Shown: in pieces, positions 1-58,295 of the stretch
Layout of the letters: each line of letters opens with the position of its first letter
How positions within the stretch are numbered: the first letter of the stretch is position 1
NCBI GenBank assembly: GCA_030524055.1
Contig: JAUNHH010000004.1
Coordinates: 1 to 64,000 of the forward strand
Reading direction: 5' to 3'
DNA length: 64,000 nucleotides
Source of the DNA: Actinomycetaceae bacterium
GTDB taxonomy: Bacteria > Actinomycetota > Actinomycetes > Actinomycetales > Actinomycetaceae
Notes under the pieces: model-generated
The model's database searches: none
Told to the model about the DNA's origin: nothing
The model's input: only the letters and a program-made list of their open reading frames with translations
Translations under genes and position numbers: made by a program

Positions 1-455
1 CCAGCGGGTCCCGGTCTTCACCCATCCCCCCCAAAAAACAGACAAACACCACCACGAAAAATGCCTCCCGCCCCTCGCAGGCGGACAAACCGCCGCCAAG
101 ACGCGTTTCCAAACGGCAAATGTCATTGCGGACGCGGTTTATCAAATGGGGCTGAGGATCTGTAATTGCCGACCTGTACACATACGCGGGGTGGGATTGT
201 CCAGACTGACAAACCACCGCGAGGACGTATTTTCGGGTTGCGAATGTGCGTTGTGGCCGCGCTTTGTCACTGAAGGTTCCACGCCAGAATTTTTGACCTG
301 CGCAAATAACGGCCCCGCCCTCGTGCATCTTGACAACCCGCCGCGACAAGGTATTTTCTAGCGCCAAATATCGTCCTGCCAGCGGGTTGTCGTGGTCGTC
401 TATCCGCCAATGCGTGACGCTTAACTGCAACCAACGCAAGATGCCCTATAGGCCA
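1..455. repeat. Degenerate tandem array of 124-bp units, each with a ~60-nt hairpin
   Basis: Three related imperfect palindromes lie at 84-143, 208-268 and 332-391, exactly 124 bp apart. The arms are GACAAACCGC/GCGGTTTATC, GACAAA/TTTGTC with inner CGCG, and a perfect GACAACCCGC/GCGGGTTGTC. The parts between hairpins are also related: GACCTG sits 37 nt before both the second and the third hairpin. Bases 4-16 resemble the right arm of a further, earlier unit, so the array probably continues upstream of the window. No credible gene is present; the short ORFs crossing it are not believable. What it does is unknown. It could be a structured RNA, a protein-binding array or a relic. Confidence 0.6.
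313..325 (-). repeat. Dispersed motif copy (CGAGGRCGGGG family), intergenic
   Basis: Exact core on the minus strand, read CACGAGGGCGGGG. It lies in the segment between the second and third hairpins of the tandem array, outside any gene. Confidence 0.7.
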
Positions 456-498
456 CAGACGGGCCTCGTACGGCACCTGCAGGCGCAGGAAAGAAAGA

Positions 499-525
499 GG
501 GCTCACACGAACATTGTGTGAGCCC
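499..525 (-). terminator. Rho-independent terminator of gdhA
   Basis: A perfect 10-bp stem GGGCTCACAC/GTGTGAGCCC encloses a 7-nt loop. Read on the minus strand it is followed by TCTTTCTTTC, a U-rich tract. It sits 52 bp beyond the gdhA stop codon, so it most likely ends that transcript. Confidence 0.8.
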
Positions 526-576
526 GTCTTGCTATGCCGCGGCGCCTCCGTGGGTGGCGCCAACGATCTGCGTTCT

Positions 577-2171: not shown

Positions 2172-5111
2172 ATGGCGCAGGATTATCGAGGTCGATCTCA
2201 AGGAGATCGTGACAATGGAGCGCGGCGCCAATGGCGTGACAGCGGTGACCGTTCCTGGAGGGGATCTGATCGCGACGATCGTCGTGGCGAGGGCGGGGCG
2301 CGTAGCGGAGGAGACTTCCGCCGTGATGACCGTGGTGGGGATCGTCGTGATTTCAATCGTGATGACCGTCGTGGCGGCGGCCAAGGTTTCCGGCGCGATG
2401 ACCGTGGAGGAGATCGACGCGACTTCCGTGGTGATGACCGTGGTGGATGGCGTCGTGACGACCGTGGGGGAGACCGTCGCGAAGGTCAGGGCTTCCGGCG
2501 CGATGACCGTGGAGGAGATCGTGGTGGTTTCCGTCGTGATGATCGTGGCGGGCGAGATGATTTCCGTGGCGGTGGCCGTAGCGGAGGAGACTTCCGCCGT
2601 GATGACCGTGGTGGGGATCGTCGTGATTTCAATCGTGATGATCGTGGTGGGCAGCGCCGTGAGGACCGTGGCGGCTTCCGTAGAGATGATCGTGGGGGAG
2701 ACCGTCGCGGTGGACAGGGCTTCCGCCGTGACGATCGCGGAGGAGATCGACGTGACTTCCGTCGTGATGATCGTGGGGGAGACCGCCGCGAGGGTCAAGG
2801 GTTCCGCCGCGATGACCGTGGAGGAGATCGACGTGACTTCCGTGGTGGGGATCGTCGTGATTTCAATCGTAATGATCGTGGTGGACAACGCCGTGAGGAC
2901 CGTGGAGGTTTCCGTAGAGACGACCGCGGGGACCGTAAGGACTTCCGCAGGGATGACCGTGGGTCAGGACGCCGCGATTTTCGCAATGATGACCGCTCTA
3001 AGGGGCATAATGCTGCTAAAGGCGCAGGACGCAATGACCGCGCTTCTGAGGCTCCGTGGACCAGCGTTGACGAATACGATTCACCAAACCCTAATGAGCC
3101 CATCATTCCAGCAGGTGTTTCTGCTGATGAACTTGATGCGGAAGCGCTGCGTAGCCTCGATACCCTCTCGGGCCCCAATAAGGACATTGTTGCTCGCCAC
3201 CTTGTGATGGCTGGTCAACTCATTGATATTGACCCGGAAGTTGCTCACCAGCACTCAATGGCGGCAGCATCACGGGCTGGCCGCGTTGACGTCGTTCGTG
3301 AAGCTGCAGCACTCACGGCTTACGCCTCTGGCCGCTATGAGGAAGCACTCCGGGAAGTGCGCGCTGTGCGCCGTATGCGTGGCGATGATTCCCTTCGTGC
3401 TGTTGAAGCTGATATTGAACGCGCATTGGGGCGGCCCGAAAAGGCTGTTGAGATTATTGACGCTACCAATACCTCAACTTTAGATCTTGCCGAACAGGTC
3501 GAACTTGTCCTCGTTTCTTCTGGTGCCCGAGCAGACCTGGGTCAACACGAGGTCGGCCTCGTCCTCGTCGATGATGCCTTGGCAGCCCTACCTGCTGACG
3601 TCAATGTCGAACTCATTCGCCGACTCATGTCCGTAAAAGCCGATCGTCTTCGGGAATTGGGCCGCGAATCGGAAGCTGACGAGGTTGAAGCCTCAATGCC
3701 CGAGGAAATTGAAGACCCCGACATTATTGATGTCGCCCTCATTGCCGATGCCGATGTTGATGCGAAGAACTCTGTTCTGCGTGGCAGTGAATCGACCCTG
3801 TGTACTCAATATGACAGTGCCCTTATTGATCTTGATGGCACTGCCTATGCGGGTGCGCTCCCCATTGATCACGCTGCGCAGTCCGTGATTGACGCCCGCG
3901 CGGCAGGAATGCTGACCGCATTTGTGACCAATAATGCCTCCCGTACAGCTGCCGCTATTGCCGAACACCTGACAGAACTCGGCCATGAAGCCACTGAAGA
4001 TATGGTGATGACTTCGTCTATGGACGTCATTGCCATTATGGAAGAACACCTCGAAGAAGGGGCCAAAGTCCTGGTGATTGGCTCTGACGGCCTGCGTATT
4101 CCTGTGGAAGAAGCGGGCTACGAGGTTGTGGACTCCGCTGATGATGAGCCCGCTGCCGTTGTCCAGGGCCTTGATAAGAGCCTCGATTGGGCACGCTTGA
4201 GTGAAGCTGTTCTCGCTATTAACCGTGGCGCCCTTTTCTTCGCGACCAACCTTGACGCAACCCTGCCAGGGGAACGTGGCGAAATGCTGGGCAATGGTTC
4301 GCTGGTGAAGGCTGTCCAACACGCTTCGCATAAGCGTCCTATTGCCGCTGGCAAACCCGAACCTGGCATTTATACGCGCGGCGCCGCCCTCGTTGGAGGC
4401 AAAAACCCTCTTGCTGTGGGTGATCGCCTTGACACTGACATTGCTGGAGCGGTTGCTGCGGGGATTCCCTCCCTTCATGTGCTCACCGGAGTGTCCTCTG
4501 CGCGTGATGTCATTACCGCTCAGCGTGGACAACGCCCCACATACCTGGCATTGGATATGCGTGGTCTGCTGGAAAATCACCCGCGACCCAAGCATCACCG
4601 TGACGGGACATGGACCTGCGGTGTCTCGCAGATTGCGAAAGTGCTCCGCGATGGGACACTGACACTCGATGACATTCCTCTAACGGAAGAGGCCACACTG
4701 TCATTGGATTCCTACCGCGCACTTGCTGCTGCCGCATGGGAGTCCGCAGCTGAAGGCCGCGATGTCACCTGCCCAGAGATTCACGTTGTGTCCAATGACG
4801 ACCCTGCCGGGATCGTTGAGGCGCCACCTGAGCCCGAAACGCCAGAAGAAGTGGAAACCCTAGAAGGGGAGGAAACCCTGGGTGATGACGCATCTACTGG
4901 CGAGGGCGGGGTGGCACCTGACGAACCCACCGAGACCGCTGGCAGCGCGGAAGTGACCCCTATCAGCACCAGCGCTGAAACGGAGGGGCTTGCCGCCGAT
5001 GCTGACTCACTTCCTGAGGCTCCCGAGGATATCCCTGCCTTCCTGCCCGGTGAAGAAGAACTCGCAGAACTTCTCGCTGCTTCAGATGAAGGGGAGGACG
5101 ACATTCAGTGA
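2172..5111 (+). CDS. RGG-repeat / TPR-like / HAD-IIA phosphatase fusion
   Basis: A 979-residue three-part protein. Residues about 5-277 are low-complexity Arg-Gly-Asp repeats built from units such as FRRDDRGGDRRDF, typical of disordered RNA-binding RGG regions. Residues about 295-540 are helical and resemble the TPR-like protein upstream of the phosphatase in mycobacteria (Rv1691). Residues about 550-830 are a NagD-type HAD phosphatase: DLDGT nucleophile motif at 553-557, TNN, KPEPGIY, and VGDRLDTD at about 749-756. The last ~100 residues are acidic. ATG 2172 has GAGGAA upstream. The stop overlaps the next start by 4 bp. The substrate is unknown; the RGG arm suggests RNA or ribosome association, which is inference. 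Confidence 0.8.
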   Translation: MAQDYRGRSQGDRDNGARRQWRDSGDRSWRGSDRDDRRGEGGARSGGDFRRDDRGGDRRDFNRDDRRGGGQGFRRDDRGGDRRDFRGDDRGGWRRDDRGGDRREGQGFRRDDRGGDRGGFRRDDRGGRDDFRGGGRSGGDFRRDDRGGDRRDFNRDDRGGQRREDRGGFRRDDRGGDRRGGQGFRRDDRGGDRRDFRRDDRGGDRREGQGFRRDDRGGDRRDFRGGDRRDFNRNDRGGQRREDRGGFRRDDRGDRKDFRRDDRGSGRRDFRNDDRSKGHNAAKGAGRNDRASEAPWTSVDEYDSPNPNEPIIPAGVSADELDAEALRSLDTLSGPNKDIVARHLVMAGQLIDIDPEVAHQHSMAAASRAGRVDVVREAAALTAYASGRYEEALREVRAVRRMRGDDSLRAVEADIERALGRPEKAVEIIDATNTSTLDLAEQVELVLVSSGARADLGQHEVGLVLVDDALAALPADVNVELIRRLMSVKADRLRELGRESEADEVEASMPEEIEDPDIIDVALIADADVDAKNSVLRGSESTLCTQYDSALIDLDGTAYAGALPIDHAAQSVIDARAAGMLTAFVTNNASRTAAAIAEHLTELGHEATEDMVMTSSMDVIAIMEEHLEEGAKVLVIGSDGLRIPVEEAGYEVVDSADDEPAAVVQGLDKSLDWARLSEAVLAINRGALFFATNLDATLPGERGEMLGNGSLVKAVQHASHKRPIAAGKPEPGIYTRGAALVGGKNPLAVGDRLDTDIAGAVAAGIPSLHVLTGVSSARDVITAQRGQRPTYLALDMRGLLENHPRPKHHRDGTWTCGVSQIAKVLRDGTLTLDDIPLTEEATLSLDSYRALAAAAWESAAEGRDVTCPEIHVVSNDDPAGIVEAPPEPETPEEVETLEGEETLGDDASTGEGGVAPDEPTETAGSAEVTPISTSAETEGLAADADSLPEAPEDIPAFLPGEEELAELLAASDEGEDDIQ
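2190..3000 (+). repeat. In-gene repeat tract encoding Arg/Gly/Asp-rich units
   Basis: About 0.8 kb of imperfect tandem DNA repeats built on variants of CGTGATGACCGTGGTGG. The repetition keeps other frames open, producing long false ORFs on both strands. The tract is likely to vary in length between strains. Confidence 0.8.
2288..2298 (+). repeat. Dispersed motif copy inside the RGG-HAD gene
   Basis: Exact core CGAGGGCGGGG, read in frame as Gly-Glu-Gly-Gly. Confidence 0.6.
4901..4911 (+). repeat. Dispersed motif copy inside the RGG-HAD gene
   Basis: Exact core CGAGGGCGGGG in the acidic C-terminal tail, again read as Gly-Glu-Gly-Gly. Confidence 0.6.
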
Positions 5112-6938: not shown

Positions 6939-8605
6939 TTCGCACAATTTCGATTCGCAACCTAGGAGTCATTGAAAAAGCTGAGCTGGAAATCGGCCCG
7001 GGACTGACTGTCCTCACAGGGGAAACCGGCGCTGGTAAAACCATGGTGCTGACCTCCCTTCATCTCCTTATGGGAGGCCGGGCTGACCCGGGGTGGGTGC
7101 GCAAAGGAGCCGAGAAAGCCGGCGTTGACGGTATTTTCGAGATTGATGCGCAGGTGGCCGCCCTCGTCGATGACCTTGGGGGCGACGTTGATGAGGATGA
7201 ATTAATCGTGTCGCGCACGATTGCCGGCCAGGGGAGGTCGCGCGCGCATTTAGGAGGGTGCTCGGTCCCTGCTGGAACTCTGGTGGAGGTTTTGTCCCCA
7301 TTGGTCACTGTCCACGGGCAAACAGATCAATTGCGTTTGCGCTCGACCCAGGTCCAGCGGGAAACGATTGATAGCCACGGCGGTGCGGCACATGCCAAGC
7401 TCCTGAAAAAATATGCTGCTGCATGGGCTCAAGCAGTGGGTACGAAAAAGCGTCTCGATACGGCGCTTGCGGACGCAGAGTATCGTGCGGACCGTATTGA
7501 GCACCTCAGTGCAATAACAGCAGCCATTAGTGACCTTGATCCGCGTGAAGGGGAAGAAGAGGAACTCCGCAGCGAAGCCGAACGTTTAACCAATGCCGAG
7601 GACTTGAGGATTTTCGCTGAGCAAGCCCGCGTGCATCTTCGTGGCAGTGATGACGAGGACGGGGCCCTAGATTTAGCCAGGCGAGCCCGCGATGGCCTGG
7701 CTCACGCAAGCCGTTTTGATAGTGGACTAGATGACCTTCTTGAACGCCTGACCTTGGCGGTTGTCGAATGGGATTCGATAGCTGACGAAATTGACTCCTA
7801 TTTGGCGACATTACAGGCTGACCCGCAACGTCTTGCTGCTATTCATGAACGGCGCGCACAATTGCGCCGGCTCATGGAAGGGCGGGCCGCTGATATTGGC
7901 GAACTTTTACGTTGGTATGACGATGCTACCCGCGAATTAGCGGATTTAACGGGGACAGGAAGCGACCCGGCCACACTTGAAGCGCAACTAAAAGAAGACC
8001 AAGCGGAAGTATTACGCATTGGGGAAGAGCTCTCTGCCTCTCGCAGAAAAATAGCGGATTCTTTAGCGCGTGCAGTCGATAAAGAATTAGCCGGCTTAGC
8101 CATGAAAGACGCGCATTTCACTATTGAATTTACGCCGTCAAAACCCGCACCCTACGGCTTAGAAGAAATGAAAATGCTTCTTCAAGCCCACCCCAGTGCC
8201 CCCGCCCGGCCCCTCGGGCAGGGGGCGTCCGGCGGTGAACTCTCGCGCGTCATGCTGGCTTTAGAGGTCGTCCTCGGGGCACGCGGCAGCGCCCGCACAT
8301 TTATTTTTGACGAGGTCGATGCCGGCATTGGTGGGCGCACTGCTAATGAAGTGGCCTCCCGCCTGGCCAGACTTGCCCAGGATCGACAGGTCATTGTGGT
8401 GACCCACCTGCCGCAGGTGGCCGCTGTGGCCACCACCCATTTAGTAGTAGAAAAATCTGATGGCCGAACCATTGTGCGCACGGTGGAAGGGGAGGAGCGC
8501 CAAGCCGAGTTGGTGCGAATGATGGGTGGCGATGCCCACTCCGAGGCGGCGCGCCGCCACGCTGCGGAAGTGTTGAAGGTCAACATGTCACAATCGGCAG
8601 GGTGA
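6935..8605 (+). CDS. recN: DNA repair protein RecN
   Basis: A 556-residue SMC-like ATPase of double-strand-break repair. The N-terminus carries the Walker A motif (LTGETGAGKTMVL), the middle is a long coiled coil, and the C-terminus has the ABC signature GQGASGGELSRVMLALEVVLG, Walker B TFIFDEVDAGIGGRTA, and the H-loop VTHLPQVAA. I start it at GTG 6935, which overlaps the nadK stop as GTGA and has GGAG 7 nt upstream; the ATG at 6914 would add seven residues before the conserved IRTISIRNLGVIEKAELEI. A dispersed-motif copy lies at 7652-7664. Confidence 0.92.
   Translation: MIRTISIRNLGVIEKAELEIGPGLTVLTGETGAGKTMVLTSLHLLMGGRADPGWVRKGAEKAGVDGIFEIDAQVAALVDDLGGDVDEDELIVSRTIAGQGRSRAHLGGCSVPAGTLVEVLSPLVTVHGQTDQLRLRSTQVQRETIDSHGGAAHAKLLKKYAAAWAQAVGTKKRLDTALADAEYRADRIEHLSAITAAISDLDPREGEEEELRSEAERLTNAEDLRIFAEQARVHLRGSDDEDGALDLARRARDGLAHASRFDSGLDDLLERLTLAVVEWDSIADEIDSYLATLQADPQRLAAIHERRAQLRRLMEGRAADIGELLRWYDDATRELADLTGTGSDPATLEAQLKEDQAEVLRIGEELSASRRKIADSLARAVDKELAGLAMKDAHFTIEFTPSKPAPYGLEEMKMLLQAHPSAPARPLGQGASGGELSRVMLALEVVLGARGSARTFIFDEVDAGIGGRTANEVASRLARLAQDRQVIVVTHLPQVAAVATTHLVVEKSDGRTIVRTVEGEERQAELVRMMGGDAHSEAARRHAAEVLKVNMSQSAG
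7652..7664 (+). repeat. Dispersed motif copy inside recN
   Basis: Full 13-mer GACGAGGACGGGG, read in frame as Asp-Glu-Asp-Gly in the variable coiled-coil region, where sequence is least constrained. Confidence 0.75.
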
Positions 8606-9753
8606 GTGCCCCTATTATCCATGGTCGGGTGCGTATTGATGAGCGCCCACAGCGCTTAGCATCACGCCTGGAAGCAGGCGAGATTGCCGTTATTGATCAG
8701 CCCGATCTTGATCGGGCTACTGCCCAAGCTCTGATTGCTGCTCGCCCAGCTGCCATTCTCAATGCCGCCCCTTCCGCAACGGGGCGGACCCCTGTCCTTG
8801 GTCCAGGCCTCATTATTTCCGCAGGGGTACCACTGATTGATGACCTGGGTTCTGACCTCATGACCTTACGTGAGGGCGATCAAGTGGCAGTGCGTGGAGG
8901 GGAAATCCTGCGTGGGGATACCCTTATTGCCTCAGGAATACGTCGCGAAAATAATGGGCCTATTGGGGCAGAAAGAATAGCAACGTCGCTGACCTCATTT
9001 GCTGCCTCCGTTGACGAATATCTGGAGCGAGAAGGCGATATTGTCCTTGAAGGCGTGGGTGTGCCCACTCTGCCAGAAAAACTTCAGGGCCGCCCTATTC
9101 TGATTCTTTCTGATGGCACCCACCTAGCGGAAGAACTACGCGGATTAAAATCGTGGATTGGGGATTGCCATCCAGTAATTATTGCCGTTGATCGTGCCGC
9201 AGAAATCGCCATAAAATCCAGGAATACCCCGGATGTCATTATTGGCGATATGGAACTTTTAGCGGAGAAAACCCTCCGCTGCGGAGCGGAACTTATTACG
9301 TTGAGTGGTGAAGGAGATGACGGTGGGGGAGCACGCCTCGCCCGACTGGGGTTGACCTACCAGGATGCGACAATGGCAGCCCTTGCTGAAGACGCGGCGG
9401 TCAATATTGCCGCCCGCGCACGCCCCGTCGCCATTGTTGTGGCCGGTGGCAGTTCCGGTTTAGCTGACTTCCTTGACCGCTCCCGAGCGACAATGGCCCC
9501 GGCATTCCTCACGCGACTCCTGGCCCAGAATGTCCTCGTTTCAGCGCCTGCCATTATTGCGGCCCATCGGCCCCGCCCTCGTTCCTTTGGATTATTCCTC
9601 CTTGCCCTGGCCATGGTTTTCGCGGTGCTTGCTGCCCTATGGTCCACACCCTGGGGGCATGCACTCCTGTCCTCACTTATTCCACCCCCGGCCGCCGTCT
9701 CTAGCCCAATGGACACCCCTGCCCCTCTAAATGCACCTGGGAACCTCTTATGA
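8602..9753 (+). CDS. steA: SteA-like cytokinetic ring protein (Rv1697 family)
   Basis: A 383-residue protein with a thiamin-pyrophosphokinase-like soluble part (RPILILSDGTHLAEELRGLKSWIGDCHPVIIAVDRAAE, PDVIIGDME) followed by one C-terminal membrane helix (about 328-350, GLFLLALAMVFAVLAALW) and a short Pro-rich tail. In Corynebacterium the SteA/SteB pair belongs to the RipC-FtsEX cell-separation pathway. Position between recN and the steB-like gene matches mycobacteria and corynebacteria. It starts at GTG 8602 within the recN stop and ends inside the steB start, so the two are translationally coupled. Biochemical activity is not known. Confidence 0.82.
   Translation: MSAPIIHGRVRIDERPQRLASRLEAGEIAVIDQPDLDRATAQALIAARPAAILNAAPSATGRTPVLGPGLIISAGVPLIDDLGSDLMTLREGDQVAVRGGEILRGDTLIASGIRRENNGPIGAERIATSLTSFAASVDEYLEREGDIVLEGVGVPTLPEKLQGRPILILSDGTHLAEELRGLKSWIGDCHPVIIAVDRAAEIAIKSRNTPDVIIGDMELLAEKTLRCGAELITLSGEGDDGGGARLARLGLTYQDATMAALAEDAAVNIAARARPVAIVVAGGSSGLADFLDRSRATMAPAFLTRLLAQNVLVSAPAIIAAHRPRPRSFGLFLLALAMVFAVLAALWSTPWGHALLSSLIPPPAAVSSPMDTPAPLNAPGNLL
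9571..9583 (-). repeat. Dispersed motif copy inside steA
   Basis: Exact core on the minus strand (CCCCGCCCTCGTT on plus), read in steA as Pro-Arg-Pro-Arg just before the membrane helix. It is one of the few copies not in the usual reading frame. Confidence 0.65.
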
Positions 9754-11493: not shown

Positions 11494-11522
11494 TCTCAAC
11501 GTTATTACGGGAGGAGGCCACG

Positions 11523-12215
11523 ATGGAACATACAGACGCATGTACTCGCGAGCAGGTCCTCGACTTGGTTGTCGAAAAAGGTCCTGTAACGGCCTCAACA
11601 ATCGCCAAAATCCTGGGATTGACAACCGCAGCTGTCAGGCGGCACATTACGATCCTCATTGATGGGGAAGAAATCCGCGAAAAAGAGCCCGCTCAATTAG
11701 GTAAACGAGGGCGGGGCCGGCCAGCTCGCCATTATGTCGCTACGGAAAATGCCCACCGTAAACTCCAAGAAGGCTATTCCGACCTTGCGCTCAAAGCCCT
11801 CGGATACTTGGGGCAAGTTGGCGGTGAAGAAGCTGTCGATTCATTTGCTGCAGCGCGTTCGCGCGAAATTGAGCGCCGCTATGCCCCTGTTGTGCGTGAG
11901 GCAGGAACAGATCCACGGGTGCGTGCCCAGGCATTGGCCGATGCCCTCACTCAGGATGGTTTTGCTGCTACTGTGCGCGATATTGGTGGGGGAGGTTTTG
12001 CTATTCAGCTGTGTCAGGGCCACTGCCCGATTCAGCAGGTAGCAGGAGACTTCCCTCAACTGTGCGATGCTGAAACCCAAGCATTTTCCCGATTATTAGA
12101 CGTTCATGTGCAACGTCTTGCCACTCTTGCTGGTGGGGAGCATGTGTGCACCACACACATTCCCGTGGGTATGCCCACCGTTCGCCCATCTACCCGTTTG
12201 GGCGCTCGCCACTGA
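11523..12215 (+). CDS. sufR: SufR-type Fe-S-sensing transcriptional regulator
   Basis: A 230-residue regulator with an N-terminal winged helix (about 5-55, VTASTIAKILGLTTAAVRRHITIL) and a C-terminal Cys cluster (CQGHC, QLCDAE, then HVCTTHIPVG) suited to holding an Fe-S cluster. In cyanobacteria and mycobacteria SufR represses suf genes when clusters are plentiful. I use ATG 11523 with GGGAGGAGG upstream instead of the in-frame ATG at 11490. It is first in the operon, 60 bp before sufB. A dispersed-motif copy at 11704-11716 encodes Lys-Arg-Gly-Arg-Gly. Confidence 0.88.
   Translation: MEHTDACTREQVLDLVVEKGPVTASTIAKILGLTTAAVRRHITILIDGEEIREKEPAQLGKRGRGRPARHYVATENAHRKLQEGYSDLALKALGYLGQVGGEEAVDSFAAARSREIERRYAPVVREAGTDPRVRAQALADALTQDGFAATVRDIGGGGFAIQLCQGHCPIQQVAGDFPQLCDAETQAFSRLLDVHVQRLATLAGGEHVCTTHIPVGMPTVRPSTRLGARH
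11704..11716 (+). repeat. Dispersed motif copy inside sufR
   Basis: AACGAGGGCGGGG, read as Arg-Gly-Arg-Gly, an unusual frame for this motif, in the linker after the winged helix. Confidence 0.65.
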
Positions 12216-17045: not shown

Positions 17046-17512
17046 TGTCGAGTTTGGAGCAGCTGTATCAGCAGGTCATTTTGGACCATTCGCGCCGCCG
17101 CGATGGTGCGGGAAGAGTTGAGTCTTTTGAAGTGACCTCCCATCAGGTCAATCCTACGTGCGGGGATGAAGTGACCCTTGGGGTGGAGGTTGACGAGGAC
17201 GGGGTGGTGACCCGTCTTGCGTGGGATGGAGATGGATGCTCCATTTCGCAGGCCTCACTGTCAATGATGTATTCCATGGTGTTAGGTGCGGATACTCCGC
17301 GTGTGAGCGCCTTATATGAGGCCATGGAGACAATGATGCATTCGCGCGGCGGAGGCGTCGATGATGAGATTCTTGATCGTCTTGAGGATGCCGCGGCTTT
17401 AGAAGGCACCTCGCAATTTCCTAATCGTATTAAATGCGCTTTGCTGGGCTGGTATGCCCTGCGGGATGCATTGGCTCGCCACGGCACCGATATTCAAGGA
17501 GGTACACGGTGA
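17045..17512 (+). CDS. sufU: Zinc-dependent sulfurtransferase SufU
   Basis: A 155-residue SufU that accepts sulfur from SufS. The three conserved cysteines are visible in NPTCGDEV, GDGCSISQAS and RIKCALLGW, with the Asp of the GDE motif as a further zinc ligand. The start ATG 17045 overlaps the sufS stop, and its own stop overlaps the next gene (GTGA). A full 13-bp dispersed-motif copy at 17192-17204 encodes Asp-Glu-Asp-Gly in the middle of the fold. Confidence 0.94.
   Translation: MSSLEQLYQQVILDHSRRRDGAGRVESFEVTSHQVNPTCGDEVTLGVEVDEDGVVTRLAWDGDGCSISQASLSMMYSMVLGADTPRVSALYEAMETMMHSRGGGVDDEILDRLEDAAALEGTSQFPNRIKCALLGWYALRDALARHGTDIQGGTR
17192..17204 (+). repeat. Dispersed motif copy inside sufU
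   Basis: Full 13-mer GACGAGGACGGGG, read as Asp-Glu-Asp-Gly. Confidence 0.75.
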
Positions 17513-17984: not shown

Positions 17985-17997
17985 GACGAGGGCGGGG
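17985..17997 (+). repeat. Dispersed motif copy, intergenic, abutting the suf terminator
   Basis: Exact GACGAGGGCGGGG preceded by ATT, giving the fullest form of the motif. It lies between the convergent suf operon and peptidase gene, joined directly to a separate hairpin. Confidence 0.8.
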
Positions 17998-42079: not shown

Positions 42080-43687
42080 GTGACTCGTCAAATTCCTATT
42101 GCCTTAGCACTATTATCCTCAGTGGCCCTATGCGGAAGTTATCTGATGGTAGGGGCCGGAATAGATGCTGCTCTGACACAGCGTGACTTCACAAGCGCCT
42201 TTATTATCGCCTCAGTCTGTGCTCTCCTCGCAGGATTTGCCACCTTCGCGGTAGGGCGAATCTGCACATCGGCAATAGGTATAGAAGAAAAGAGTGCGCG
42301 CAGACGACTTTTGCGCCACGTGTTTGCCCTAGGAGTAGCTCAGCGTACTTCCGAGCGGGCGGGGCGCATCGTGAATACGATGACTGATGGCGTTGAGCGC
42401 CACGCATTACATACCTCCTCTTTTATAGGGCCGATGATTGCCTCTTTGGCGACCCCCGCCCTCGTTATTGCCATAATTGCGATCTCCTTAGATTGGGTTA
42501 CTGCCCTCATCCTTGCTATTGCTATTCCCGTAGTGCCCGCCTCTGTCGTGGCATTCCAAATGGCATTTAAATCGGTGTCCGCCAAATATCGTGCATCGTC
42601 GCGCGCGTTAGCCGCCCAGGAACTTGATGCCATTCAAGGGTTGGGAACATTAGCGCGAATGAATGCTGGCCGAGCAATGAGCGCCACCTTGGCTCGCGCC
42701 GCTGAAGAAGTCCGTATTCGGGTAATGCGGTATTTAGCGGGAAATCAGCTAGTCCTGTTGGTGGTTGATGCCGTCTTTTCTTTAGGGATGGTGACCGCTG
42801 CTGCTGCCCTTGCATTATGGCGAATGGAGGCAGGGGTTTTATCGCCTGGGGGAGCACTGGCCTTAGTCCTTTTATCGACAATTATGCTTGACCCCTTAGA
42901 TCGCATTGGCCAATTCTTCTATATTGGCATGGGAGGAATGGCAGCAGGGCGGGAAATGAAAACATTCCTCGCAGAAGTTCCCGCCACAAAGGACGAGGAC
43001 GGGGTGAGAATTCCTCATAATGACGATGTCGCTGATGGGCGCATCGATATCGATAATCTCCACTTTAGGTGGGATAACGAAGTTCCGGTTTTAGAAGGGG
43101 CACATCTGCATATTGACCACGGTGAACATCTTGTGATCCGTGGGGTTTCCGGGGCTGGAAAATCAACCCTGTCTGCCTTGCTTCAAGGTCACCAACGCCC
43201 TGAATCCGGCACTATTCGTATTGAAGGAATCGATATGCAGAGCGCTCCGCTGGCATGGCTACGATCGCGAATAGCCGTGGTCGAACAAACGACCTATCTT
43301 TTTAGTGGAACCCTGCGAGATAACCTGCTAATAGCGAGTCCTAATGCCACCGATAATGATCTTCTTCAGGCATTATCACGAGCACATCTTGATGACCTTA
43401 TGGCGCGTCTACCTGAAGGATTAGATACCCCTGTTGGGCAACGCGGATTGGCATTATCAGGCGGTGAGGCTCAACGCTTGGCAATAGCGCGAGCTCTATT
43501 AAAAGATGCGCCCATAATGCTCCTTGATGAACCCACTGCCCATGTTGATTTGGCCTCAGAACGCCTTATTCTTGAGGCTCTTTCGGATGTGACAAAGGGG
43601 CGAACAACGCTGACAATATCCCACCGCAATGCGACTATTGCTAGTGGTAGCCGAGTCGTCGAATTGACGCAAGGAAAACTCCAATGA
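42080..43687 (+). CDS. Exporter-fold ABC transporter half, probably iron-related
   Basis: A 535-residue fusion of six membrane helices and an ATPase: Walker A RGVSGAGKSTL, signature ALSGGEAQRLAIARALLK, Walker B PIMLLDEPTAHVD. It pairs with the following gene (4-bp overlap). The family includes siderophore importers such as YbtPQ and IrtAB, and CydDC. There is no cydAB, and an iron box lies upstream, so iron or siderophore uptake is the best guess. GTG 42080 follows GAGGAG. Two dispersed-motif copies are inside, at 42454 and 42992. Confidence 0.8.
   Translation: MTRQIPIALALLSSVALCGSYLMVGAGIDAALTQRDFTSAFIIASVCALLAGFATFAVGRICTSAIGIEEKSARRRLLRHVFALGVAQRTSERAGRIVNTMTDGVERHALHTSSFIGPMIASLATPALVIAIIAISLDWVTALILAIAIPVVPASVVAFQMAFKSVSAKYRASSRALAAQELDAIQGLGTLARMNAGRAMSATLARAAEEVRIRVMRYLAGNQLVLLVVDAVFSLGMVTAAAALALWRMEAGVLSPGGALALVLLSTIMLDPLDRIGQFFYIGMGGMAAGREMKTFLAEVPATKDEDGVRIPHNDDVADGRIDIDNLHFRWDNEVPVLEGAHLHIDHGEHLVIRGVSGAGKSTLSALLQGHQRPESGTIRIEGIDMQSAPLAWLRSRIAVVEQTTYLFSGTLRDNLLIASPNATDNDLLQALSRAHLDDLMARLPEGLDTPVGQRGLALSGGEAQRLAIARALLKDAPIMLLDEPTAHVDLASERLILEALSDVTKGRTTLTISHRNATIASGSRVVELTQGKLQ
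42454..42466 (-). repeat. Dispersed motif copy inside the first ABC gene
   Basis: CCCCGCCCTCGTT on the gene's sense strand, read Pro-Ala-Leu-Val within a membrane helix. Confidence 0.7.
42992..43004 (+). repeat. Dispersed motif copy inside the first ABC gene
   Basis: Full GACGAGGACGGGG, read Asp-Glu-Asp-Gly in the linker between membrane and ATPase domains. Confidence 0.75.
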
Positions 43688-45619: not shown

Positions 45620-45651
45620 CCCCGCCCTCGCCAATAGTGACGAGGACGGGG
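45620..45651. terminator. Bidirectional terminator made of an inverted dispersed-motif pair
   Basis: Arms CCCCGCCCTCG (45620-45630) and CGAGGACGGGG (45641-45651) pair with one G-T wobble around a 10-nt loop. Extra G-C pairs can form just outside. It lies between the convergent ABC pair and the MetE-like gene. Confidence 0.8.
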
Positions 45652-48004: not shown

Positions 48005-49909
48005 ATGGCTAAGGCCCGGCAATTGCGATCCGCAACCTCGACTCAAGGGCGGAATATGGCGGGAGCTCGTGCACTATGGCGCGCCACCGGAATGGGCGAT
48101 GATGATTTTGGAAAGCCCATTATTGCGGTAGTCAACTCCTTCACTGAGTTTGTTCCAGGCCACGTTCACCTTCGTGACGTCGGTCGCATTGTGGCAGACG
48201 CCATTGTCGAGGCCGGTGGTGTCGCTAAAGAAATGAACACCATTGCTGTTGACGATGGTATTGCCATGGGTCACACGGGCATGCTGTATTCATTACCTAG
48301 TCGCGAAGTCATTGCTGACTCTGTGGAATATATGGTCAACGCCCATTGTGCTGACGCTATGGTCTGTATTTCCAATTGCGACAAAATCACCCCGGGAATG
48401 CTGATTGCTGCGATGAGGCTAGATATTCCCGTGGTTTTTGTTTCTGGTGGACCAATGGAGGCAGGGAAAAATATTGACCCCACCACTATTATTGGTGATT
48501 CCCGTGAGGGACACGGAAATCTCATTACGGTAATGAATGCGACCGCTAATGATTCCATTAGCGATGATCAGCTTTTAGCTATTGAAAGGCTAGCCTGCCC
48601 CACCTGTGGCTCCTGTTCAGGAATGTTCACGGCAAACTCCATGAATTGCCTGACTGAAGCCCTTGGTCTTTCCCTCCCGGGAAATGGTTCGACTTTGGCC
48701 ACTCATAGTGCCCGACGCGACCTTTTTACCCGTGCAGGGAAACTTATTGTTGACCTGTGCCGCCGCTATTACACCGAGGGCGACGATAGTGTGACCCCGC
48801 GCAATATCGCCTCTACTGACGCCTTCTGGAATGCGATGACCCTTGATATGGCCATGGGGGGCTCTTCAAATACGGTCCTGCATATTTTGGCGGTGGCTCA
48901 TGAAGGGGGAGTGGATTTCGACCTCTCAGACATTGCGGAGCTCGGGAAAAATGTTCCCTGTCTGTCAAAAGTCGCCCCCAATCACAATGACTACCATATG
49001 GAAGATGTGCACCGCGCAGGCGGTATTCCTCGGCTTTTAGGTGAACTCGACCGCGGTGGCTTCCTCCGTCACACCGTCCATTCTGTGCATTCTTCGGATT
49101 TAGCGTCGTGGCTGTCTGACTGGGATCCATGTTCACCTGCAGTGACGCAACAAGCCGTGGAACTGTGGCATGCTGCGCCCGGAAATGTCCGCACCACCGA
49201 GCCTTTCTCGACCTCGAATCGGTGGGTGGATCTGGATCTTGACGCCGAAGGTGGGTGTGTCCGCGATATCGCCCATGCCTACACCGCCAGCGGCGGATTA
49301 ACTGTTCTCTATGGCAATTTGGCCACTGAAGGCGCCATTATTAAATCTGCTGGTATTGATCCTTCCCTTTTCCATTTCGAGGGTACTGCCCGCGTTATGG
49401 AATCCCAGGATGAGGCGATTGAAAAGATCCTCGATAAGACCGTTCAAGCGGGCGATGTTGTGGTGATTCGCTATGAAGGCCCTGCTGGTGGGCCAGGAAT
49501 GCAAGAAATGCTCTACCCGACTTCCTTTATTAAGGGACGTGGTTTAGGTAAAGCCTGCGCATTGATTACTGATGGTCGTTTTTCGGGTGGCACATCCGGT
49601 ATTTCCGTTGGCCATATTTCCCCGGAAGCTGCTGATGGTGGCCTCATTGGATTGGTCGAGGACGGGGATCGAATCATTATCGACGTTAATGAAGGTCTCC
49701 TCCACCTGGATGTTCCGGAAGAGGAAATCGAACGGCGCCGCGCTGCGCAAATAGCACGCGAAAATCCCTGGACACCGGTTGCCCGCGACCGGATAGTATC
49801 CCCAGCTCTCCAGCTGTATGCAGCTACCGCATTATCAGCGTCAAAGGGTGCTGCTCGCGACGTCTCGCGCATTGTTGGTGCTCGTCACCGTAAAGGAGCC
49901 GAAGTATGA
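48005..49909 (+). CDS. ilvD: Dihydroxy-acid dehydratase
   Basis: A 634-residue Fe-S enzyme of valine and isoleucine synthesis, longer than the usual ~560-615. Cluster cysteines appear in NCDKITPGM and [31 protein letters not shown]; the C-terminal [19 protein letters not shown] is typical. ATG 48005 follows GGAGGA. It overlaps cimA by 4 bp, joining it to the citramalate route. A motif copy at 49655 reads Val-Glu-Asp-Gly. Confidence 0.94.
49655..49667 (+). repeat. Dispersed motif copy inside ilvD
   Basis: Core CGAGGACGGGG preceded by GT, read Val-Glu-Asp-Gly in the C-terminal domain. Confidence 0.65.
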
Positions 49910-51552
49910 CCGCTGCGGTGAATTCGGTGAATTCGGACCCCGCCCTCGTTGATCTTTATGACACCACTTTGCGTGATGGCGCCCAGCAAGAAGGAATCTC
50001 TTTATCGGTGGCAGATAAACTTGCCGCTTTGCAGATTCTCGACGATTTAGGTGTGGCCATTATTGAAGGGGGATGGCCAGGTGCTATTCCCAAAGACACC
50101 GAGTTTTTTGCTCGGGCAGCCGCAATAGAGTTAAAAAATGCGCGGCTTGCGGCTTTTGGTGCGACAGTAAAAGCTGGCCTTGAACCCAGTGATGACCCTC
50201 AAGTGGTGGCACTGCGTGATTCGGGTGCCCCAATCATTACCCTCGTGGCAAAATCTGATCCACGTCATGTGGAAAAAGCCCTGCGCACAACTACAGAAGA
50301 AAACCTGCGAATGGTGCGTTCTACTGTGGAGTTTTTGCGCAGCGAAGGGCGCGACGTCATGGTGGATCTCGAGCATTTTTTCGATGGCCTCGACGCCGAT
50401 CCTGATTATGGTTTCCAAGTGCTTCTTACTGCTGCCCAAGCAGGTGCCAGTGCTGTTATTCCTTGCGATACTAATGGTGGAAATCTGCCAGCGCGGATTG
50501 GGGCTGTCTGTGCGCAGGCACGAGAAAAACTCGATGCCAATGGTTACCGCGATGTGGTTTTAGGAATCCACGCCCATAATGACACCGGATGTGCGGTGGC
50601 TAATACTTTAGCTGCCGTCGATGCTGGCGCCCGCCATATTCAAGGTACCGTTAATGGTTATGGCGAACGCACTGGCAATGCCAATTTGCTGACCTGCGCG
50701 GCGAACCTCGAATTAAAAACGCCTTTTACCTGCCTGCCTGAAGGGCATTTGGCGAAACTCGATCGCGTCTCTCACCAGATTGCCGAACTGGTCAATATTG
50801 CGCCTTTTACCCGTGATCCTTATGTTGGTCGCAGTGCATTTGCCCATAAAGCAGGTTTACATGCCAGCGCTATTCGTGTGGATGCTGATTTATATCAGCA
50901 TATTGATCCTGCGGTGGTGGGTAATGATATGCGAATGCTGGTTTCGGAAATGGCTGGGCGAGCGTCCATCGAATTAAAAGCCGCCGAATTAGGGATTGAC
51001 CTTTCCACTGATCCACAGGTGACTGCCCGCGTTTCCGCCACTATTAAGGCGCGTGAAGCCGAAGGTTATACCTATGACGCCGCGGATGCTTCCTTTGAGT
51101 TACTTCTCCGTGAGGAATTGGGGAGTCTTCCGCGTTTTGTTCGCGTGGAATCCTGGAAGGTCGAAACCCAAGAAATTGCTGAAGTCCAGGGTGAACCATT
51201 TACCCTCTCGGAAGCAACTGTCAAAGTCCATACGGACCGGCGCCATATTCGCACCGCAGAAGGAAATGGCCCCGTTAATGCTTTAGACCGGGCGCTGCGG
51301 CATGTATTAACCCGCGATTATCCGCTTGCCGCGACCTTTGAGCTCACCGACTTTAAGGTGCGTATTCTTGAAGACGTTCATGCAGGCACTGATGCCACTA
51401 CTCGTGTCCTGGTGACAATGGGTGACCATGAGCGTTCCTGGACCACCGTGGGCATTGGCACTGACATTATTGAAGCCTCATGGGAAGCCCTTTTTGACGC
51501 CTATTGGTGGGGCCTCATGTCAGCTCGCGTCGTGCCGCTATTGGCCCAATAG
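49906..51552 (+). CDS. cimA: Citramalate synthase
   Basis: A 548-residue enzyme condensing acetyl-CoA and pyruvate to (R)-citramalate, the entry to threonine-independent isoleucine synthesis. [19 protein letters not shown], the metal motif [39 protein letters not shown] and a C-terminal LeuA-type regulatory domain are seen. [12 protein letters not shown] distinguishes it from 2-isopropylmalate synthase. It overlaps the ilvD stop as ATGA. A motif copy at 49938 encodes Pro-Ala-Leu-Val-Asp in the N-terminus. Confidence 0.9.
49938..49950 (-). repeat. Dispersed motif copy inside cimA
   Basis: CCCCGCCCTCGTT on the sense strand, read Pro-Ala-Leu-Val near the N-terminus. Confidence 0.75.
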
Positions 51553-51571: not shown

Positions 51572-51611
51572 CCCCGCCCTCGTCAATTCCGAAAAAGAAA
51601 CGAGGGCGGGG
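51572..51611. terminator. Bidirectional terminator made of an inverted dispersed-motif pair
   Basis: CCCCGCCCTCGT (51572-51583) and ACGAGGGCGGGG (51600-51611) pair exactly around a 16-nt loop. It sits between the convergent cimA and GH3 genes, 20 bp and 7 bp from their stops. Confidence 0.88.
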
Positions 51612-54592: not shown

Positions 54593-54627
54593 CCCTGCCC
54601 TCGTGAATTCAATTGACGAGGACGGGG
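54593..54627. terminator. Bidirectional terminator made of an inverted dispersed-motif pair
   Basis: Left arm CCCTGCCCTCGTG (one mismatch to the motif) and right arm GACGAGGACGGGG (54615-54627) with imperfect pairing, and AATT runs in the loop. It lies between the convergent lipoate ligase and dehydrogenase genes. Confidence 0.72.
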
Positions 54628-55687: not shown

Positions 55688-55860
55688 AAAACGAGCCTAA
55701 ACCAGGAGCCTCTGACTGCGTGGCGGGATGAGGAAAAGCCGCTGTCACTTTTGAAAGCTGTCGTGGTGTGAAGCACATATGTGCGCCCTTGCGCGGCGTG
55801 GCGTGGTGATGCCTACGGTGTTGACATCCGCACAGACGCGGAAGAATCGAGAGGATAGCA

Positions 55861-57561
55861 ATGACGCGCCTAGTGAATACCCCGTCAGATTTCCCGAGTG
55901 AAGCTCTTCGCGGATTCGTTGCGGCAAATCGCCGTTATGTTAAACCGGTCCATGGAGGAGTAGTTCGCTCAACCGCAACCCCACAGGGCAAGGTTGCTGT
56001 GGTTTATGGTGGTGGCTCTGGCCACTACCCAGCATTTGCTGGGTGGGTTGGTCACGGTTTTGCCGATGGAGCTGTGTGTGGCAATATTTTCAGCTCACCC
56101 TCCGGAGGGCAGGCCTATTCTGTATTGAAGGCCGCTGAACGCGGAGCAGGGGTCCTTATTGGTTTTGGAAATTACGCTGGGGATGTTCTGCATTTCGGTC
56201 AGGCAATCGAACGTCTGCGCGCAGAAGGTATCGACGCTGACACTTTAGTGGTCACTGATGACATTGCTTCTGGCAGCGTCGAAGAAATAGAAAAACGACG
56301 CGGTATTGCTGGCGACTTCCCGATCTTCAAAATCACTGGAGCAGCCGCGGAAGCTGGCCTGAGCTTCGACGAGGTTAAACGAGTATTCGCTAAAGCAAAT
56401 GCCGCCACCCGCAGTTTTGGTGTGGCTTTTGCTGGCTGCACATTGCCGGGCGCCAAAGAACCACTGTTTACCGTTCCCGCCGGAAAAATGGGGATTGGCC
56501 TAGGGATTCACGGCGAACCTGGTGTGGATGAAGCAGACCTGGGCACGGCCAATGAAGTCGCAGACACCCTGGTTGAGGGTCTTTTAAAAGAACGCCCCGC
56601 CGATGGAAATAATCGCGTTGTGGCGATTATTAACGGCCTAGGCGCTACCAAATATGAAGAGCTTTTCGTGGTGACAGCGCGCGTTGAAGAAGCCCTTAAA
56701 GAGGCGGGTGTTGAATGTGCCGATATTGAATCTGGCGAATTTGTCACCTCCTTGGATATGGCTGGTATTTCACTCACTCTGGTCTGGGTGGATGATGAAT
56801 TACTCGACTATTGGAATGCTCCTTGTGATTCGCCGGCCTATCGGAAAGGATCCGTTGGTGAGGTAGCGCGTGACGATGCCGCAGTGAATCAAGAAGCCCT
56901 TGCTGTGGAGATTTCTGCAGTTGGTTCCCCTGAGTCTCAAGCGGTTGCTCGCACGGTCGCTGATGTGCTGGACGAGATTGCCCAGATGCTGGAGGGAGCC
57001 CAGGATGACCTGGGCAAACTCGATGCGGTCGCAGGCGACGGGGACCACGGCATTGGGATGGCCAATGGCGCACGTGCGGCTGCTAAGGCAGCCCGGGGGA
57101 TTGCCGACCAAGGTGGCGGCGCACAGACCCTACTGAATGCGGCCGGTAACGCCTGGTCTGATGGGGCAGGTGGAACCTCTGGAGCCCTCTGGGGAGCAAT
57201 GCTCACTGCTTTTGGATCGGTGCTCACTGATCAGGAGGCTGTGACGACAGAGACATTGCTTGAGGCTGCCACTGCTGCGGTTTCTGCGGTTCAGCGTTTG
57301 GGCGGGGCCCAGGTGGGGGATAAGACTCTGGTGGACGCCTTGGTACCTGCCCGAGAAGCATTTGCCAGTTCCTCAGGAGATTTGGGAACCCGGCTGCAGG
57401 CGGCTGCCCAGGCGGCAGATAAAGGGGCCGATTCAACGAAGGCGTTGAAAGCAAAGCTGGGTCGGGCGCGTCCTTTGGGAGAAAAATCCATTGGTACGCC
57501 GGACCCGGGTGCTGTCTCGCTGTCACTGGTGATCGACCTATTGGCAGGTAAAGCGAGGTAA
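55861..57561 (+). CDS. Dihydroxyacetone kinase, DhaK-DhaL fusion
   Basis: A 566-residue single-chain ATP-dependent kinase. The N-terminal DhaK domain (about 1-330) has GGGSGHYPAFAGWVG with the substrate-binding His; the C-terminal DhaL domain (about 355-566) has DAVAGDGDHGIGMANGA with the Mg-binding aspartates and SDGAGGTSGALWGAML. It phosphorylates dihydroxyacetone to the glycolytic ester. ATG 55861 follows GAGAGGAT. The linker (SAVGSPESQAVARTV) joins the two. Confidence 0.92.
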   Translation: MTRLVNTPSDFPSEALRGFVAANRRYVKPVHGGVVRSTATPQGKVAVVYGGGSGHYPAFAGWVGHGFADGAVCGNIFSSPSGGQAYSVLKAAERGAGVLIGFGNYAGDVLHFGQAIERLRAEGIDADTLVVTDDIASGSVEEIEKRRGIAGDFPIFKITGAAAEAGLSFDEVKRVFAKANAATRSFGVAFAGCTLPGAKEPLFTVPAGKMGIGLGIHGEPGVDEADLGTANEVADTLVEGLLKERPADGNNRVVAIINGLGATKYEELFVVTARVEEALKEAGVECADIESGEFVTSLDMAGISLTLVWVDDELLDYWNAPCDSPAYRKGSVGEVARDDAAVNQEALAVEISAVGSPESQAVARTVADVLDEIAQMLEGAQDDLGKLDAVAGDGDHGIGMANGARAAAKAARGIADQGGGAQTLLNAAGNAWSDGAGGTSGALWGAMLTAFGSVLTDQEAVTTETLLEAATAAVSAVQRLGGAQVGDKTLVDALVPAREAFASSSGDLGTRLQAAAQAADKGADSTKALKAKLGRARPLGEKSIGTPDPGAVSLSLVIDLLAGKAR

Positions 57562-57578
57562 AGGGGAGCGGAGAAGGG

Positions 57579-58295
57579 CTAGATTGCTGAGCGCGCCCCG
57601 AATACCGCGGTGCCAATTCGGATAATCGTGGCGCCCTCAGCAATCGCCCACTCCAGATCTCGGGACATACCCATTGACAGTTCCAGGGATTCCTCTGGCT
57701 GACCCAAGTGGGCAGCAGTCGCATTGCGGATGGTGCGTAAGCGCTCATAGGCCTTGCGCACTGCTCCTTCTTCGGGGGAGTTCAACCCAACCGTCATGAA
57801 TCCGCGGAAGTCAAGGTATGCAGATTCCGTAATCACATCAACGAGGGCGGGGCAGTCCTTTTCATGACATCCGGACTTTGCTTCCTCCCCAGAGACATTC
57901 ACTTGTACGAGGACGGGGAGCGGATTTTCTGTCTGGAGAATAGTCAGGCGCCGGTTGAGCCGGTGGATAAGGTCCACGCGGTCAATAGTGTCAATGCCAT
58001 CGACCCAGCGCAGTGCATGGTTCACCTTATTGCTTTGTAGTGGCCCAATAAGGTGGAGGCGAGCGCCAGGAATAGCGTGGATGGCCTCAGCAGTGGCGGC
58101 AGCTTCTTGAACGCGATTATGTCCCAGGAGGATAGGGAGGCCGCGATCAGCGAGGACGTGTGCGGCTTGAGCACATTCTGTGCTGGTCCGCGTTTTCACT
58201 GCCAATTGCAGGGCGACGCTGTCTGAACGGCCTGCAATTTCACAGGCTGCGCGGATTCGGTGGCAGGCCTGATCAATGCCATGAGCAATATCCAT
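57579..58295 (-). CDS. YggS/PLPBP-family pyridoxal phosphate homeostasis protein
   Basis: A 238-residue PLP-binding barrel, no known catalysis. The PLP lysine is in QLAVKTRT, followed by LGHNRVQEA where homologues usually read GENRVQE, then HLIGPLQSNK, LSMGMSRDLEWAIAEGATIIRIGTAVFG. I start at ATG 58295; upstream in-frame sequence is low-complexity and overlaps yccF. A GAGG lies only a few bases before. It holds two motif copies, at 57840 and 57906. Confidence 0.86.
   Translation of the reverse strand: MDIAHGIDQACHRIRAACEIAGRSDSVALQLAVKTRTSTECAQAAHVLADRGLPILLGHNRVQEAAATAEAIHAIPGARLHLIGPLQSNKVNHALRWVDGIDTIDRVDLIHRLNRRLTILQTENPLPVLVQVNVSGEEAKSGCHEKDCPALVDVITESAYLDFRGFMTVGLNSPEEGAVRKAYERLRTIRNATAAHLGQPEESLELSMGMSRDLEWAIAEGATIIRIGTAVFGARSAI
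57840..57852 (+). repeat. Dispersed motif copy inside the yggS-like gene
   Basis: AACGAGGGCGGGG, antisense to the gene, which reads Pro-Ala-Leu-Val-Asp. Confidence 0.72.
57906..57918 (+). repeat. Dispersed motif copy inside the yggS-like gene
   Basis: TACGAGGACGGGG, antisense to the gene, which reads Pro-Val-Leu-Val; only 66 bp from the previous copy. Confidence 0.72.

Follow-up and report, generated by a model that had tools for sequence, protein, structure and literature searches.

The window analyzed here, a stretch of 64,000 nucleotides from an Actinomycetaceae bacterium (assembly GCA_030524055.1, contig JAUNHH010000004.1, positions 1 to 64,000), carries many dispersed copies of the short word CGAGGRCGGGG. 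This raises the question of whether the word is an uptake tag comparable to the DNA uptake sequences (DUS) of Neisseriaceae and the uptake signal sequences (USS) of Pasteurellaceae, as an initial annotation of the window had proposed. The organism belongs to the Schaalia/'Actinomyces' group, Schaalia being placed in the Actinomycetaceae, Actinomycetota. We consider it likely that the organism, an actinobacterium of the Schaalia group, is naturally competent and that the motif is its uptake sequence, independent in origin of both DUS and USS. The reading follows from its copy number, its dialects with a fixed core, its tolerant outer positions, and its inverted pairs at gene ends, all as in DUS and USS.

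Enrichment of CGAGGRCGGGG in the window and the genome

All 27 exact copies located by the initial annotation were present, 17 on the plus strand and 10 on the minus strand. One hundred dinucleotide-preserving shuffles of the window yielded a mean of 0.08 and a maximum of 1. The earlier chance estimate of 0.15 copies, made on an assumed G+C content of 56%, was close; the actual content is 54.8%. With up to one mismatch, 42 copies were found (15 beyond the exact 27) versus 3.6 expected, and the six near-copies that had been named all lie within these 15, three of them with the core 1 to 2 bases farther right than reported, presumably as a result of 13-mer counting. The fullest form of the word among the 27 copies is ATTGACGAGGRCGGGGC. 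The A said to precede the core as a rule is present in 23 of 27 copies; A, T, T, and G on the 5' side of the core and C on its 3' side are preferred bases and are not fixed. Flanks are unrelated among the copies, conservation ending after about 16 bases. Measured against the open reading frame (ORF) list, 15 sites are genic and 12 intergenic, as had been estimated.

In the whole assembly, which comprises 3,034,260 bases in 47 contigs, the word occurs 1,323 times (674 plus, 649 minus) versus 11 occurrences of the reversed word (4 plus, 7 minus). A count of several hundred to more than 1,000 copies had been anticipated for an uptake sequence. Site anatomy was studied in a 464-kb sample of this genome, made up of the window plus twenty 20-kb stretches, against a codon-aware null that shuffles synonymous codons within called genes, resamples intergenic DNA, and leaves codon-pair effects unmodeled. 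Under this null, 1.5 copies were expected (mean of six) and 188 were observed. The top 10-base word of the codon-aware list was ACGAGGGCGG, with 199 copies versus 3.8, 84 of them intergenic. The consensus of the window genome, ACGAGGRCGGGG, was found exactly 153 times versus 0.3, with one mismatch 144 times versus 13.7, and with two mismatches 166 times versus 136. Deviations were confined to positions 1, 7, 10, 11, and 12 in 131 of the 144 one-mismatch copies, among which the core CGAGG.CG is nearly invariant. An expectation-maximization motif search from one seed returned a clean motif in the window genome only, codon periodicity swamping all 14 of 14 relatives. A scan of viral contigs with a 15-base form returned 83 stretches with a single match each and thus no phage-borne clusters.

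Dialects in related genomes

Presence in sister species had been named beforehand as a check on the uptake reading, and related variants of the word were indeed found there. Whole-genome counts are given as copies/copies of the reversed-word control. CGAGGRCGGGG, counted in 98 genomes including that of the window, reached 1323/11 in the latter, 460/11 in G013, 310/12 in G007, 309/14 in G015, and 63/1 in G005; it was near the control level in the low-GC genomes G016 (3/3) and G018 (9/4), and each of ten odontolytica-like genomes held 26 to 57 copies. G039, from another genus of the family, gave 100/5. With G039 and the genus of the window genome (g1) set aside, the ratio in the other 62 genomes peaked at 5.3 (G048, 16/3), a maximum that omits G040 and G077, with one copy each and a control of 0.

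The word CGAGGCCGGGG, counted in 68 genomes, was found 192 to 565 times in the ten odontolytica-like genomes (G010, 342/1; G011, 565/5; G012, 472/1; G019, 480/6; G022, 495/11; G023, 536/6; G025, 351/6; G028, 433/6; G031, 192/8; G034, 455/6). Outside this set, G013 (235/8) and the window genome (196/2) overlap the lower end of the range, and G005 gave 12/4. Since the odontolytica-like genomes are rich in CGAGGCCGGGG and poor in CGAGGRCGGGG, the two forms swap places. Two other words were counted in 38 genomes, a set that leaves out G024 to G034. ACGAGGACGAG was most abundant in G005 (426/2), followed by G013 (177/3) and G009 (109/6), with 24/1 in the window genome and 1/4 in G016; TTGMCGAGGC gave 243/10 in G016, 242/10 in G018, 171/13 in G002, 139/9 in G001, and 103/12 in the window genome. 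Common to all of the dialects, namely, the word of the window genome, CGAGGCCGGGG, ACGAGGACGAG, and the CGAGGCC forms of low-GC genomes, is CGAGG.

Words in excess of the codon-aware null were also sought in 20- to 80-kb samples of each relative (for the odontolytica-like set, in a pool of 320 kb), pieces shorter than 7 kb (L244, L255, L260, and L262) being left out. CGAGGCCG was enriched in the low-GC genomes G016 (40 versus 7.0), G018 (46 versus 6.1), and G024 (35 versus 4.4), and in G026 pooled with one stretch of G032 (21 versus 2.4). Other leading words were CGAGGCCGGG in the odontolytica-like set (99 versus 11.0), ACGAGGACGA in G005 (24 versus 1.6), ACGAGGCG in G030 (25 versus 2.6), ACGAGGGCG in G004 (26 versus 3.0), and CGAGGGCG in G039 (20 versus 2.0) and in a named 21-kb locus of S. 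vaccimaxillae (11 versus 1.0). CGAGGnCG was absent from the top words of the samples from G054, G056, G058, G059, G099, G110, G190, G208, and G036. In G051, CGACGAGG stood at 33 versus 11.2 among a set of ACGACGA-type words. The CGAGGnCGGGG words were not clearly in excess in named loci, one per genome, from Cellulomonas, Georgenia, Frankia, and Actinomyces oris/johnsonii, with maxima of 7 versus 2.8 in Cellulomonas and 4 versus 0.7 in Frankia.

In a tree of LepA, the six odontolytica-like rows group as a single clade (support, 99/99), and G015, with the same word at a lower density, is the sister of the window genome (99/96). Four of the 22 rows (G016, G018, G024, and G026) were disregarded as wrong paralogues with 26 to 27% identity.

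The word search also returned signals of other kinds. Its positive control was TTATCCACAG, which we take to be a DnaA-box-like word and which occurred 25 times versus 0.3 in the odontolytica-like samples (L225 to L237 and L241 to L243). Long-repeat words with about 20 to 40 copies each in L214 to L216 (G010), L220 and L221 (G021), and L097 to L099 (G008) are clustered and probably represent CRISPR arrays; the G008 repeat was masked, and the G010 dialect was taken from whole-genome counts only. In G036, GACCGTGACC and its shifted forms made up a clustered repeat in L264 (C1:1-20000), with 11 to 14 copies per 20 kb versus about 0.3 to 1.4 in the null. The palindrome CGAGGCCTCG, which consists of two overlapping inverted words, was enriched in G016 (7 versus 0.2), G018 (6 versus 0.1), and G026 (5 versus 0.3). 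It resembles the overlapping dyads of Simonsiella muelleri described in the available excerpt of PMC3630211.

Site conservation and strand polarity

Conservation was followed by tracing CGAGGCCGGGG sites between genomes around comEC (nine odontolytica-like genomes) and around the first tad locus, tad-1 (six loci). Intergenic sites were 97.9% and 98.2% identical, respectively, versus 77.7% and 81.2% for their flanks, and genic sites were 92.2% and 88.9% identical versus 76.8% and 76.7%. Random G+C-rich control words equaled their own flanks (84.7 versus 85.5% and 89.2 versus 88.6%). It should be noted that these percentages give an approximate effect size, since the 393 and 114 ordered site-genome pairs are nonindependent and alignments may anchor on the sites.

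Such conservation, together with the genome-wide spread of the word and a spacing more even than random scatter, would also be displayed by a chromosome-maintenance word kept by selection inside the cell, such as a Chi-like word, an FtsK-orienting word, or a nucleoid-protein site. For spacings of more than 100 bases, the coefficient of variation was 0.72; about 1 is expected of random scatter. Chi and FtsK-orienting (KOPS) words are strand-polar about the replication origin, and one contig piece of the window genome, the longest (C3), is strand-uneven in a way that would suit them. Genome-wide, however, copies are split almost evenly between the strands, although over 47 contigs of arbitrary orientation in a genome that is not closed. 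No consistent link of strand to GC skew was seen among the sampled contigs: C32, of negative skew, has 26 plus and 15 minus sites, and C44, of positive skew, has 2 plus and 6 minus. Of 12 pieces of 20 kb from odontolytica-like genomes, complete ones among them, 10 have sites on both strands. As a partial test, the polarity data speak against Chi-like or FtsK-orienting words. Replication polarity as such was rejected. In G028, places that appeared to be plus-only and looked strongly polar were accompanied by minus-strand sites in the same stretch. Neither inverted pairs and an enrichment in convergent gaps nor the dialects of sister species would be expected of an essential internal word. We therefore regard a chromosome-maintenance word as unlikely.

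Site placement and inverted pairs

Intergenic DNA is strongly overrepresented among the sites. In the 464-kb sample, 91 of 188 sites are intergenic, though DNA free of called genes makes up 12.6% of the bases. Among the 88 intergenic sites with a called gene on each side, 43 lie in convergent and 11 in divergent gaps, the total lengths of which are about equal. Neighbors no more than 100 bp apart are inverted in 16 of 17 cases (P = 0.0003). The 97 genic sites are oriented with the gene in 53 cases and against it in 44, with certain codon phases preferred. In the window itself, four inverted pairs, all in convergent gaps, fold as stems at -25 to -34 kcal/mol.

These features would suit transcription terminators or RNA stems that came to share a standardized arm sequence, and both of the inverted pairs inside the 16 kb scanned match a terminator pattern ending in a T-rich tail. 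However, that pattern was no commoner in these 16 kb than in shuffles (19 versus 18.0), more than half of the sites are genic and most are single, and in the low-GC relatives, G030, and G004 the sites are mostly genic. A fixed arm sequence is, moreover, unnecessary for terminator function. Terminators or RNA stems as the origin of the word thus appear quite improbable.

Other explanations

A self/non-self mark other than an uptake tag, recognized by a modification, restriction, or defense system, would account for a word that is nonpalindromic, lineage specific, and genome-wide. Restriction sites are usually avoided, however, and an enrichment of about 100-fold runs counter to this; the terminator-type pairing would also be left unexplained. 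We give such a mark little credence. A small mobile repeat of the repetitive extragenic palindromic (REP) or miniature inverted-repeat transposable element (MITE) type that has spread would leave many dispersed near-identical copies, as observed, but the window copies have no conserved flank beyond about 16 bases and no longer unit, copies lie inside ORFs, and one-mismatch copies vary mainly at set positions, which makes this explanation very hard to maintain.

Codon or composition bias, for which the common Asp-Glu codon pair GAC GAG and the raised counts of TTGACGAGG across the family might speak, has next to no chance of being the source of the signal and is ruled out as its cause in the window genome, where the word persists at 188 versus 1.5 after synonymous-codon shuffling, half of the sites are intergenic, and genic sites take both orientations. 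Across the family, some of the excess of TTGACGAGG is probably due to codon bias; it looks codon-driven at least in G190, G208, G058, and G059, the codon-aware lists of which lack a CGAGG word. Codon bias may also contribute to the signal of high-G+C relatives. Separately, each of the 26 places of TTGACGAGG in G190 among the matches listed lies on the plus strand of a single contig, and three 20-kb pieces of that genome held three on the plus strand and one on the minus strand.

Competence and tad genes

The com genes that had been proposed as a further check on the uptake reading are present. The window genome encodes a ComEA-like protein with SLBB and helix-hairpin-helix domains next to ComEC, and two tad loci. 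One of these (L078) has separate tadA, tadB, and tadC, a small Flp-like protein, and TadE/TadG-like proteins; the other (L079) has a fused TadB/C and a DUF4244 Flp-like protein. We think that the putative uptake word is probably read by a Tad/Flp-pilus machine.

Among 16 genomes, TadA of the tad-1 type (61 to 77% identity) was found in G003, G005, G015, G027, G028, G030, G033, and G039. It was missing from G051, G054, and G058, all without the CGAGGnCG word. Tad-1-like loci also occur in Actinomyces oris and Cellulomonas, without a clear excess of the word. A TadE family match was obtained in 9 of 13 genomes, with no split between genomes with and without the word. Two loci pooled with the word count of S. 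odontolytica, L132 (Xylanimonas cellulosilytica 352_XCEL) and L133 (Sanguibacter keddieii 250_SKED), carry titles that look wrong; the tad-1 loci of L132, L133, and S. odontolytica have 66%, 66%, and 65% identity to the query.

Comparison with known systems

According to the excerpt of PMC3630211 available to us, the DUS of Neisseriaceae is a short word present in thousands of copies, with dialects that keep a fixed inner core and tolerate changes at outer positions, with inverted pairs at terminators and both intergenic and intragenic copies, and it is read by the minor pilin ComP. The window word is alike in being short and abundant and in its dialects, fixed core, tolerant outer positions, inverted pairs, and occurrence in both gene contexts. 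By sequence, the word falls outside the DUS lineage, the CTG core given in that excerpt being missing from ACGAGGRCGGGG; the phylum is unrelated as well. In contrast to Neisseriaceae, no ComP-like protein was found in the window genome in a receptor survey that covered the tad loci and ComEA. The pili of the window genome comprise two Tad/Flp loci, the search for a type IVa pilus being confined to the secretion-ATPase family.

The USS of Pasteurellaceae, as presented in the excerpt of PMC12616744, is likewise a short, enriched word with types that share a fixed core. It reads AAGTGCGGT or ACAAGCGGT, and the consensus of the window genome matches neither. The GCGG of the G-form in the window is absent from the odontolytica-like CGAGGCCGGGG, and the likeness to USS is therefore probably a coincidence.

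In Micrococcus luteus, both tad clusters are needed for transformation, one having separate tadB, tadC, and TadE/F and the other a fused tadB/C with Flp (excerpt of PMC4322843). The window genome is similar in having comEA-comEC and two tad clusters of these two layouts. The term "uptake sequence" has 0 occurrences in PMC4322843, and among the literature matches listed, only one review brought uptake sequences together with M. luteus. Veillonella parvula was screened elsewhere and had no word of at least 10 bases at 100 or more copies (excerpt of PMC5397411).

Exact sites in the window

Positions of the exact copies are collected in Table 1. The gene finder was our own script, and some window genes, e.g., 29603-31039, were missed or misplaced. 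The largest interval of the window that is free of exact sites, 33085-42454 (9.4 kb), carries a run of acetolactate-synthase-type, ketol-acid reductoisomerase, isopropylmalate-dehydrogenase-type, and aminotransferase genes and is therefore housekeeping DNA and not an obvious foreign insert.

Table 1. Exact copies of CGAGGRCGGGG in the 64-kb window
Feature	Position	Strand	Context
Exact site CGAGGGCGGGG	313..323	-	Ahead of first called gene
Exact site	2288..2298	+	Inside gene 2172-5111 (HAD-hydrolase domains)
Exact site	4901..4911	+	Inside gene 2172-5111 (HAD-hydrolase domains)
Exact site	7654..7664	+	Inside gene 6914-8605 (RecF/RecN/SMC-type ATPase domain)
Exact site	9571..9581	-	Inside gene 8602-9753 (SteA-like match, below curated cutoff)
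Exact site	11706..11716	+	Inside gene 11490-12215 (helix-turn-helix)
Exact site	17194..17204	+	Inside gene 17045-17512 (NifU_N)
Exact site	17987..17997	+	Intergenic; plus gene on one side, minus gene on the other
Exact site, left arm of inverted pair	22714..22724	-	Convergent gap; stem -33.7 kcal/mol
Exact site, right arm of pair with 22714..22724	22741..22751	+	Convergent gap
Exact site	26941..26951	+	Inside gene 26456-27730 (protein-kinase domain)
Exact site	27713..27723	-	3' end of gene 26456-27730
Exact site	30253..30263	-	Inside gene 29603-31039 (pyridine nucleotide-disulfide oxidoreductase)
Exact site	32236..32246	+	Intergenic, or extreme start of ORF 32216-32983
Exact site, left arm of inverted pair	33050..33060	+	Convergent gap; stem -29.6 kcal/mol
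Exact site, right arm of pair with 33050..33060	33075..33085	-	Convergent gap
Exact site	42454..42464	-	Inside gene 42080-43687 (ABC transporter)
Exact site	42994..43004	+	Inside gene 42080-43687 (ABC transporter)
Exact site, left arm of inverted pair	45620..45630	-	Convergent gap; stem -25.4 kcal/mol
Exact site, right arm of pair with 45620..45630	45641..45651	+	Convergent gap
Exact site	49657..49667	+	Inside gene 48005-49909 (ILVD_EDD dehydratase)
Exact site	49938..49948	-	Inside gene 49906-51552
Exact site, left arm of inverted pair	51572..51582	-	Convergent gap; stem -32.8 kcal/mol
Exact site, right arm of pair with 51572..51582	51601..51611	+	Convergent gap
Exact site	54617..54627	+	Convergent gap; faces one-mismatch site 54593-54603 (minus)
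Exact site	57842..57852	+	Inside ORF 57579-58667
Exact site	57908..57918	+	Inside ORF 57579-58667

Discussion

Copy number, variants in sister species, and the presence of com genes lend computational support to the DUS/USS-like reading proposed at the outset. The shared core of the dialects, the inverted pairs in convergent gaps, the concentration of mismatches at outer positions, and, in the odontolytica-like genomes, site conservation above that of the flanks fit it as well.

Several observations weigh against an uptake function or against its proposed reader. High-G+C relatives show only about a 2- to 5-fold excess over the codon null for words of 8 to 9 bases (ACGAGGGCG, 3.6- to 4.6-fold in G007, G014, G015, and G020; CGAGGGCG, 1.9-fold in G013), and this weaker excess leaves their dialects uncertain. 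No clear word emerged from the samples of G001, G006, and pooled G027/G033. The intergenic share of sites is not raised in the low-GC relatives (15 of 142), G030 (2 of 40), G004 (1 of 26), or G005 (5 of 24), and the combination of inverted pairs with genic and intergenic copies was seen in the window genome and the odontolytica-like set and not in the samples of these relatives. On contig piece C3, 49 sites lie on the plus strand and 27 on the minus strand (P = 0.015). Almost every genome of the order has ComEC (55 of the 58 examined), and its presence therefore proves little. Among the 16 genomes searched, TadA of the tad-1 type is missing from the low-GC genomes G016, G018, G024, G026, and G032, at least four of which keep the CGAGGCC dialect (G032 being the least certain). 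Either tad-1 is not the reader, or its loss is recent; no other result speaks as strongly against a reading role for tad-1. All five keep a second TadA type and ComEC, and ComEA-like matches are retained in G016, G018, and G024. Neither the ComEA ectodomain nor any of the seven pilin-like proteins from both tad loci is electropositive as a whole, and charge singled out no receptor candidate; a local positive stripe like that described for ComP in the excerpt of PMC3630211 could still exist in a tad or ComEA protein. Finally, none of the literature matches listed described an experiment on competence or DNA uptake in Schaalia.

Under the uptake reading, we infer biased uptake and envisage four steps. 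A surface receptor tied to a Tad/Flp-pilus competence machine would bind double-stranded DNA with the core (A)CGAGGnCG, the dialect being set by the 3' part of the word (GGGG in the window genome). Retraction would then hand the bound DNA to ComEA and next to ComEC, and word-bearing fragments would enter more often, those with ACGAGGRCGGGGC being favored over those without. Biased uptake and homologous recombination would spread and repair the word genome-wide, and it would accumulate where it is tolerated: inside genes in those phases that allow it and, most of all, at the ends of genes, inverted pairs there being able to double as terminator-like stems. Lastly, the preference of the receptor would drift and the genome would follow, giving rise to lineage dialects.

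To our knowledge, uptake tags have so far been described in two Gram-negative families only. None was reported for Actinobacteria in the titles and abstracts among the matches listed from open-licence PubMed Central. There is a good chance that the word represents a third independent origin of uptake sequences and the first in Actinobacteria or any Gram-positive organism, read by a Tad/Flp pilus and with at least four dialects in one genus-level group that possibly bar exchange between species. If so, the trait evolves repeatedly, here in a Gram-positive phylum and with a different pilus, and Schaalia species would be naturally competent. They would offer a testable system for how a Tad pilus meets DNA, and their dialects would predict which species can exchange genes.

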